64,000 nucleotides of DNA from Mycosarcoma maydis (taxonomy: Eukaryota > Basidiomycota > Ustilaginomycetes > Ustilaginales): positions 496,001-560,000 of the forward strand of contig NC_026485.1 of NCBI RefSeq assembly GCF_000328475.2, in the 5' to 3' direction. A program made the position numbers and the translations under genes. The notes under the pieces were generated by a model. The model saw only the letters and a list, made by a program, of their open reading frames with translations, did no database searches and was not told the origin of the DNA. How positions within the stretch are numbered: the stretch's first letter is position 1; each line of letters begins with the position of its first letter. Shown here in pieces: positions 38,547 to 51,431 of the stretch.

Positions 38547-39628
38547 TACAAATCAGTTTAGCTTGCGGGTTGCTGCTTGGTTCTTTTCCTGTGTAACGTT
38601 GGATATGCATACAGACGTGAAAGTGTGGTTGGCTGGCTGGTCCGTGCGGGTGTGTCAGCTGCAACGAGACGGACGGAGAGGTGGGCACGTCAAAAACTGG
38701 TGCTTAGGGGTGCGAAGTGTGTGGGGTGAGTACAACGACCTGTGGCATGCCGACGAAGCACAGCCTGGCAGTGAAAACTGGGCGAGGCTCGGCAGCACGC
38801 GCGCGCGCGCGCGCCGATGCGAGAATCGATCGCACAGTCACGAGTCACGACTTGCGTTGCTGTATTCACGATTCGTGATTCACGAGTAAATGGAAAGAGA
38901 GGTGGCGGCAAGTGACTGTTGTAGTCATGTACAGTATCGAGATGAAGGCGCGGTGGTTTGGTCTGTTTTGTAACCACGTTTTTTGAACCGAATTCTTCTA
39001 GAACTGACACAAGCACGAATCGGGTGGTGGTGATATGGTGGAACAGGGAAACGTAGTTGCCAGACCTGCGAATCAAGAATCACGAATGAAGCCGAGTTGG
39101 TGACCGCAATCCAGCCGCCCCAGCTGCACAACGAGCGTGTGGTACAAATTGAGTCGGCAACCGCCTGGTGAACGACCCCATCTCATATATGTGATTTCCC
39201 TCGGCGAGATCTTTTCCTGTCTTCAATAACCCGCAACGATTCACCGTCGCCGCTCGACTGCATCGGTCTGAAAAGCCGACTGGCAATGCAACCGCGATGA
39301 GGGCGTCACCAACCTTGCATGCTAGCTCGACGATATGAAGTTTTGAAAGGGCGCGGTAACAGGATTGGTGGCTGTGAGTTGCCGTACCAATCGCTTTGAA
39401 TTTCGAGAGCGCGTGTACTCACTCTGCTCGAGTATGGCTCTTCACTGCGCCTTCAAAGAACCCACAATGGTAGCGCAAGCGGGCGTGTTCCACGAGCGAA
39501 AGCTACATATACCCCTCGAAAGCCTTCCGCCCTCCCACGTAGAGCAGGTCAGGAACCTCTCCCCGTACAGCTCGATTCTGGACAAAGACTCACACTCTTC
39601 CTCATCTCTTCAGACAACTTTTGACAAG
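38547..39628. other. Intergenic region upstream of the effector-like gene
   Basis: 1.1 kb, no gene. It contains an alternating CG run at 38798-38814 and heptamer words at 38865-38890 and 39065-39090. A TATA-like CATATA lies about 39508-39513, some 115 bases before the effector ATG. Confidence 0.6.
38798..38814. repeat. Alternating CG run
   Basis: A 17-base run of alternating C and G, of a type able to form Z-DNA, in the spacer downstream of the flippase gene. Confidence 0.8.
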
Positions 39629-48942: not shown

Positions 48943-50130
48943 ATGGCGAGTCAGGCATTCATTGTAGCGGCCAAGCGAACTCCGTTTGGAGCGTTCGGTG
49001 GCAAGCTCGCTGGCTTCAGCGCTTCGCAGCTGGGTGGTCTTGCGTCCAAGGCGGCACTCTCTGAGCTGCCCTCCTCGACCAAGGTCGACGCTACGATTTT
49101 CGGTAATGTTCACGCGAGCGACAGTACAGCTGCATACCTGGCGCGTCACGTTGGACACCATGCGGGACTGCCCGTGACAGTGCCTGCTTTGACGGTGAAC
49201 CGACTGTGCGGATCGGGTTTTCAGAGCATCATCAATGCTGTCCACGAGATCCGCGTGGGCGACTCGGCCGTCGTGCTGACCGGCGGTACCGAGTCCATGT
49301 CTCAGGCGCCGTACACTCTGTCCGGCGTGAGGTTTGGCAACACGAGGTACGGCCAGGATCTCAAGTTGGTCGACTCGCTCGCCGCGGCATTGACGGATCA
49401 GGTTCCTACGCCGACACCGATGGGTATCACGGCTGAAAACTTGGCGGCCAAGTATGGCATCACGAGACAGCAGTGTGACGAGTACGCGTTGCAGTCGCAA
49501 CAGCGCTACCAGAAGGCGTTGGCAGACGGAGCGTTCAAGGACGAAATTGTGCCTGTCGAGATCAAGTCAAAGAAAGCTACCGAGAGCTTCCAAGTGGACG
49601 AACACCCGCGTGCCAAGACCACTGTGGAAAGTCTCGGAAAGCTCCCCAGCGTTTTCAAGAAGGAAGGCACCGTTTCTGCCGGTAATGCCAGTGGTATCTG
49701 CGACGGTGCAGCCGCCAACGTTATCGCTTCGGAGGAAGCGCTGAACAAGTTCGGCCTGAAGCCTTTGGCACGTATTGTTTCGTACGGTGTCACTGCCTGC
49801 GAACCCAGCATCATGGGAATCGGGCCCGTCGAAGCGTCCAAGCTGGCGCTTAGCCGCGCCGGACTCAAGGTGTCGGACATGGATCTCATCGAGGTCAACG
49901 AGGCCTTCGCAGCGCAGTTCCTGTCCGTCCAGAAGGAGCTCGAGCTGCCCAACGACAAGACTAACGTCTTCGGTGGCGCGATCGCCCTCGGTCACCCTCT
50001 TGGCGCTAGTGGCGCTAGGATCATGGCTAACCTCACGCACAATTTGATCAGGCTCGACAAGAAGTATGCGCTCGGCGCCGCGTGCATCGGCGGAGGCCAG
50101 GGTATCGCCATCATCATCGAGCGCGTCTAA
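48943..50130 (+). CDS. Acetyl-CoA acyltransferase / 3-ketoacyl-CoA thiolase (ACAA2-like)
   Basis: 395 residues, single exon. Catalytic residues are in place: nucleophile Cys in NRLCGSGFQS (about residue 89), His in GHPLGASG, and the second Cys in ACIGGGQG. It resembles mitochondrial ACAA2 along its whole length (ending GQGIAIIIERV), more than the cytosolic Erg10 type. The reaction is thiolytic cleavage of 3-ketoacyl-CoA or its reverse, in mitochondrial beta-oxidation. There is no cleavable presequence after the ATG; animal ACAA2 likewise uses an uncleaved N-terminus. The frame upstream of the ATG is open to 48751 and would encode an Arg/Ser-rich peptide if a non-AUG start were used. No PTS1 or PTS2 is visible. 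The stop is TAA. Confidence 0.9.
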   Translation: MASQAFIVAAKRTPFGAFGGKLAGFSASQLGGLASKAALSELPSSTKVDATIFGNVHASDSTAAYLARHVGHHAGLPVTVPALTVNRLCGSGFQSIINAVHEIRVGDSAVVLTGGTESMSQAPYTLSGVRFGNTRYGQDLKLVDSLAAALTDQVPTPTPMGITAENLAAKYGITRQQCDEYALQSQQRYQKALADGAFKDEIVPVEIKSKKATESFQVDEHPRAKTTVESLGKLPSVFKKEGTVSAGNASGICDGAAANVIASEEALNKFGLKPLARIVSYGVTACEPSIMGIGPVEASKLALSRAGLKVSDMDLIEVNEAFAAQFLSVQKELELPNDKTNVFGGAIALGHPLGASGARIMANLTHNLIRLDKKYALGAACIGGGQGIAIIIERV

Positions 50131-50583
50131 GCTCTCACACTCGAGCAACATCGGCACGTTCCGATCTACTTGTTTCCACGGATCCTCAGTTGAAAAAGTA
50201 CCCAATCCTCAAAAAATGCGCCGCTTGCCCGTTCGTGTCTATAGACCTACCAATATCAGTGCTCGCTTCGAAATCGACAAGGTTCCTCTCGAGGGTTGCG
50301 CTGTTCGGCAGGCTGGTCGACTCGGTTTGGTTTACACAGCCACGTTCACGACGCTGAAGTGATGTGGAGTGAGGTTTGAACAACACATTGATTGCTAGAC
50401 ACGAGACAGCCGAGCGTCTATGCATTGGTGAATGATTTTGGGCTTTCACGGTGAAATTCCAGGGGCAGTCGGGTGGACCTAGGATCGTTCGAAGCTATTG
50501 ACACTGACAGAAGCAGACGAGAGCGGGTGAATGAGCTCTCAGAATGCAACGCCGAATCAGATCCTAGCCGACTGGCCAGCTAG
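50131..50583. other. Convergent spacer between thiolase and TPI
   Basis: No gene. The last 30 bases encode, on the minus strand, the possible readthrough extension of TPI. Confidence 0.6.

Positions 50584-50586
<3 letters not shown>
50557..50586 (-). promoter_or_regulatory. TGA-CTA stop context with in-frame extension of TPI
   Basis: The TPI stop TGA (50586-50584) is followed directly by CTA, the established high-readthrough context. The downstream frame adds Leu-Ala-Gly-Gln-Ser-Ala-Arg-Ile before the next TGA (50559-50557). It ends in ARI, close to the PTS1 consensus for peroxisome import. Confidence 0.6.

Positions 50587-51431
<845 letters not shown>

Follow-up and report, generated by a model that had tools for sequence, protein, structure and literature searches.

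The question raised by this locus is whether the stop codon of a triosephosphate isomerase (TPI) gene simply ends translation or is leaky, so that a peroxisomal form of the enzyme is made beyond it. The gene lies on the minus strand of the window, by which we mean the whole 64,000-nucleotide stretch of DNA analyzed here. Exon 1 (51323–51431, with the start codon ATG at 51429–51431) is followed by a 101-nt GT-AG intron (51222–51322, GTGAGT...TTGCAG), and exon 2 (50584–51221) runs up to and includes the first stop codon; the splice sites are inferred from sequence and frame. The spliced two-exon frame of 747 nt, stop included, encodes 248 amino acids. The open frame of exon 2 matches Pfam PF00121 (TIM) with an E value of 4.6e-88 and retrieved 186 distinct sequences from the PDB at E ≤ 0.001, and all of the best 60 of these 186 matches are named triosephosphate isomerase. 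The main product ends in FVDIVNANA and carries no PTS1 before the normal stop.

The 3’ end of exon 2 reads, on the minus strand, ...GTC AAC GCT AAC GCT TGA CTA GCT GGC CAG TCG GCT AGG ATC TGA. The stop codon TGA (50584–50586) is directly followed by CTA (50581–50583), the readthrough-promoting context with its core CT according to the published dissection, and this CTA is also the first codon of an eight-codon extension, LAGQSARI (50560–50583). The extension remains in frame until a second TGA (50557–50559), which is followed by TTC and not by CT. Its last three codons specify the cryptic PTS1 Ala-Arg-Ile (50560–50568). The sequence thus displays the UGA-CU(A) readthrough arrangement, in which the stop, the CTA and an in-frame extension to a second stop are contiguous. 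Re-reading of the minus strand showed that the initial annotation of 50557–50586 was exact in its span, in TGA-CTA, in the extension Leu-Ala-Gly-Gln-Ser-Ala-Arg-Ile and in the second TGA.

The neighborhood identifies the gene. A thiolase gene (48943–50130, plus strand; Pfam PF00108/PF02803) converges on TPI tail to tail, 453 nt from the TPI stop, and ends in ERV followed by TAA-GCT, with neither a PTS1 nor TGA-CT. In the literature, Um03299 is U. maydis Tpi1, whose readthrough isoform is described as ending in ARI (PMC9133605), and UMAG_03298 is listed as a putative acetoacetyl-CoA thiolase (PMC7396576). The consecutive numbers UMAG_03298 and Um03299, together with the thiolase beside TPI here and the ARI of malate synthase described below, indicate that the locus is U. 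maydis tpi1. Compared with the published gene (Um03299; PMC4207609) by its described features, the gene in the window is alike in enzyme, TGA-CTA context, ARI-ending extension and thiolase neighbor UMAG_03298, and we found no difference. In a protein collection clustered at 90% identity, with one example name per cluster, the closest named TPI among the best 120 of 5,793 matches comes from Ustilago trichophora, at 94% identity; an unnamed 188-residue protein among the same matches reaches 99% identity over 76% of the TPI query, and none of the 120 appears under the name U. maydis. Taken together, we have little doubt that this gene is U. maydis tpi1 with its known programmed readthrough site, and that one mRNA provides both cytosolic and peroxisomal TPI.

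The readthrough reading of this stop, correctly made from the raw sequence, had in fact already been published (PMC4207609), and the tentative suggestion that TPI had been discussed in this context in U. maydis proved right (PMC4207609, PMC3798809). The site is real and already known. That it was found again in the bare letters shows that the reading was sound, although no new gene is gained. As described in PMC4207609, tpi1 was the gene used to dissect the UGA-CUA readthrough element, and its PTS1-containing isoform arises by stop-codon readthrough. According to the same source, CUA behind the UGA is sufficient for efficient readthrough in U. maydis, replacement of UGA by UAG or UAA reduces readthrough, G418 increases it, and the first two of the nucleotides after the stop weigh most. 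These statements are based there on reporter fusions and Western blots, including a construct in which the tpi1 motif placed between two reporters gave readthrough. PMC4207609 credits tpi1 readthrough to Freitag 2012, and PMC3798809 tabulates U. maydis TPI as read through with the same source. In mechanistic terms, most ribosomes would halt at the UGA and release the 248-residue cytosolic TPI, whereas a minority would insert an amino acid there because the following CUA weakens termination. Ribosomes past the UGA would translate eight codons more and end at the second UGA, and a single mRNA would thereby serve both the cytosol and the peroxisome. The tpi1 site is a model case of one mRNA supplying two compartments through leaky termination.

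Specific evidence also concerns the signal at the end of the extension. ARI matches the published PTS1 search expression, in which it is a literal term (PMC4207609). In addition, the malate synthase gene of the same genome ends in frame with ...PARI, in agreement with the description of U. maydis malate synthase Mls1 as ending in ARI (PMC9133605). GFP fused to the C-terminal dodecamer of Tpi1 was reported to be imported efficiently when the TPR domains of Pex5b were present (PMC9133605). The in-frame ARI of malate synthase thus points to a working signal of U. maydis, though a receptor-dependent one, and the initial suggestion that ARI might target weakly has to be revised in view of this enzyme and of the dodecamer import (PMC9133605): the signal is not merely weak.

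Our comparison with other enzymes of the same genome reveals a shared arrangement. The phosphoglycerate kinase (PGK) frame ends in TGA-CTC with the extension LDAAVPKL, and that of ribulose-phosphate epimerase (rpe1) ends in TGA-CTT with the extension LARRPAKL; the family of each was confirmed. Both resemble TPI in TGA-CT, in an extension of exactly eight codons and in a PTS1 at its end, and differ from it in having CTC or CTT in place of CTA and PKL or AKL in place of ARI. Accordingly, UGA-CU and not CTA is common to all three, and the CTA context that had been ascribed to U. maydis PGK does not apply to PGK in this genome. All three are published readthrough cases, TPI and PGK in PMC3798809 and the epimerase in PMC4207609, and the U. 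maydis GAPDH and PGK cases are reviewed in PMC10688622. The common eight-codon length (LDAAVPKL, LARRPAKL, LAGQSARI) hints at a preferred tail length, as judged from these three genes, for which the scan pattern described below itself required that length; art1 is a fourth published case. The mammalian enzymes LDHB and MDH1 likewise combine a UGA-CU context with a PTS1 within the extension (PMC4207609, PMC4359377); they are other enzymes in other organisms and presumably originated separately. Peroxisomal TPI probably takes part in triose-phosphate metabolism together with peroxisomal PGK and GAPDH.

To what extent such an arrangement is expected by chance can be judged from the window and from the genome. 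The TGACTA hexamer is ordinary in the window, with 21 occurrences against 18.3 expected. TGACT occurs 142 times, and 15 of these occurrences close a frame that is open over 80 codons or more; only two of the 15 continue as TGACTA, namely TPI (226 codons) and a minus-strand frame at 38927 (85 codons, no Met). Of the 38 stop-to-stop frames that reach 200 codons, two end in TGACT, namely TPI (CTA) and a minus-strand frame at 49569 (CTT); none of the 20 that reach 250 codons does. The claim that none of the other stops read in the window has CTA after TGA therefore holds for gene-like frames, a count outside which genes with short last exons fall. The frame at 49569 has 213 codons, lies antisense to the thiolase gene, ends in TGA-CTT without a PTS1 and probably arose by chance. 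In 200,000 3’ sequences simulated with a first-order Markov model from the window, with PTS1 defined by the published search expression, CT followed the stop in 6.1%, CTA in 0.7%, a PTS1 preceded the following stop in 0.9%, and CT coincided with such a PTS1 in 0.06% (about 0.0006 per stop).

The whole genome (19,664,356 bases in 27 contigs, the window lying on contig 8) was scanned with a loose pattern of TGA-CT, eight codons, a PTS1-like ending and TRR, and with the reversed pattern as control. The 35 matches, compared with 24 for the control, indicate that most loose-pattern matches are due to chance; in 10 of the 35, the pattern had accepted TGG as last codon. All 35 were examined individually; in 12 of them the second stop is genuine and the published expression recognizes a PTS1. 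Among these 12, the frame upstream is open for 100 codons or more in TPI, ribulose-phosphate epimerase and PGK only, and for 7 to 50 codons in the remaining nine; a gene with a short last exon would escape this filter. One further frame among all 35 exceeds 100 codons (L011, with 170), but its ending, ANI, lies outside the published expression.

These counts bear on the view that TGA-CTA and ARI coincide by accident at an ordinary TPI stop. The expected frequency of the hexamer and the small excess of loose matches over the control (35 versus 24) are what such an accident would predict, whereas the joint occurrence of CT and PTS1 at about 0.0006 per stop, the reporter experiments on tpi1 (PMC4207609) and the import of the C-terminal dodecamer (PMC9133605) speak against it, and as regards readthrough it is already contradicted by the Western blots published in PMC4207609. 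In light of the simulation, the genome-wide count and the published experiments, we set chance aside as highly improbable. A peroxisomal isoform could in principle also arise without readthrough, through alternative splicing toward the 3’ end of the gene, as in GAPDH. U. maydis GAPDH is reported to use alternative splicing (PMC3798809), and the GAPDH frame in this genome meets TAA directly followed by the splice-donor-like GTAAGT, an arrangement that agrees with that report. By contrast, the TPI extension is contiguous and in frame, its PTS1 is reached without an intron, and the tpi1 motif between two reporters gave readthrough (PMC4207609). Splicing as the source of the TPI PTS1 was rejected on account of this contiguity, and we assign it a negligible probability. 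A second, divergent TPI-like gene is present in the genome (contig C7, L007 1423–2298; 292-codon frame; Pfam TIM, 1.7e-55). It was considered as a source of peroxisomal TPI and discarded, as it ends in ...AGTN with TAG-TCG and has neither a PTS1 nor TGA-CT.

A further possibility accepts readthrough as real and differs from our explanation in function only: targeting would be marginal, and the extension would be a by-product of the leaky context that the cell tolerates. In its favor, efficient import through ARI depends on the Pex5b TPR domains (PMC9133605), and readthrough PTS1s are called patchy across species in a review (PMC9549241). Against it stand the same ARI in malate synthase and the canonical PTS1-type ending, encoded in frame, that TPI retains in 21 of 21 named relatives other than the core smuts among the matches listed. 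The latter suggests a lasting need for some peroxisomal TPI. We consider the by-product view unlikely, and programmed readthrough that delivers TPI to the peroxisome is the reading retained here.

The relatives were compared through two protein searches, of which the best 120 of 5,793 and the best 120 of 4,883 matches gave 200 distinct TPIs. Among these, 26 are from named Ustilaginomycotina, comprising five that we group as core smuts for this analysis (U. trichophora, U. hordei, Sporisorium reilianum, Moesziomyces aphidis and Kalmanozyma) and 21 others. The lineages of Testicularia, Ceraceosorus, Violaceomyces, Thecaphora, Acaromyces and Kalmanozyma were looked up; the remaining genera we take to be Ustilaginomycotina, in part by the tree described below. 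All five core-smut TPIs listed end without a PTS1, in ANA (two) or ANN (three), like the TPI of the window. The 21 others among the matches listed (P0006–P0008, P0010, P0013–P0017 and 12 further named proteins), from Testicularia, Thecaphora, Violaceomyces, Tilletia, Tilletiaria, Exobasidium, Acaromyces, Microstroma, Jaminaea, Parajaminaea, Ceraceosorus and Malassezia, end in ARL (16), AKL (three), SKL (one) or SRL (one). They share a PTS1-type ending with U. maydis TPI, but their putative signal precedes the normal stop, so that the whole TPI pool would carry it, whereas in U. maydis it lies behind the stop.

Some further C-termini weigh against the evolutionary reading set out below. Identity was used to single out 23 unnamed smut-like TPIs among the matches listed; [SAC][KR]L closes 11 of them and is absent from the other 12, two of which (P0043 and P0055) are incomplete at the C-terminus. 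Of the remaining 151 listed TPIs, 13 end in [SAC][KR]L, or 23 by the published expression, indicating that a single substitution would often suffice to give TPI a PTS1. P0021, labeled as from the tree Liquidambar formosana, is a smut-like TPI (75% identical) that ends in NAKL and is probably fungal contamination. In P0011, a metagenome TPI near Exobasidium, three more residues follow NARL (NARLVRT) and would bury the PTS1, which also speaks against that reading.

A tree was built from 49 rows, the window TPI and 48 of the 200 listed proteins; P0064 (the second M. furfur protein) and P0021 were among those left out. The C-terminal ends after GGASLKPE were removed beforehand. Three outgroup rows without this motif kept theirs, and these ends remained unused as alignment columns filled in less than 30% of rows were dropped. 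A branch (97/99) separates the 37 rows taken as Ustilaginomycotina-like, window included, from the rest. Within them, the window TPI belongs to a smut clade of 16 rows (96/92), itself embedded among sequences that bear the PTS1. The PTS1 is absent from 15 of these 16 rows; the exception is Testicularia (AKL), whose place within the clade is unresolved by the tree. Over the 49 rows, the PTS1 label requires six changes, three of which are forced by starred branches, compared with a mean of 16.8 for shuffled labels.

This nesting of the core smuts among PTS1 bearers makes a loss of the in-frame signal in the smut lineage probable: the in-frame TPI PTS1 is probably ancestral, and in U. maydis the signal now resides behind the leaky stop. 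On these C-termini and the tree, we are inclined to favor a shift of the peroxisomal signal across the stop codon during smut evolution. The Ustilaginomycotina ancestor would have had a TPI with an in-frame PTS1, NARL or NAKL. On the core-smut branch, NARL would have become NANA or NANN, perhaps via NARA, so that most TPI no longer carried the signal, and its role would have passed to a PTS1 beyond the leaky UGA-CUA, at least in U. maydis. The AKL of Testicularia inside the smut clade means that the loss may be repeated, or that the PTS1 was regained there.

Among the papers listed, judged by title and the opening of the abstract, we found no description of in-frame PTS1s on Ustilaginomycotina TPIs, which Freitag 2012 and its supplement may contain; the switch in relatives may be the sole new part of this analysis, and priority is not claimed. 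If true, the switch would be a traceable change from a signal on every copy of the enzyme to one on a small, possibly adjustable fraction. It raises the question of whether leaky stops replace in-frame targeting signals when only a minor part of an abundant enzyme is required in an organelle. Two metagenome TPIs of the smut clade, P0018 and P0023, end in NARA, halfway from NARL to NANA, and these endings look like an intermediate between the two.
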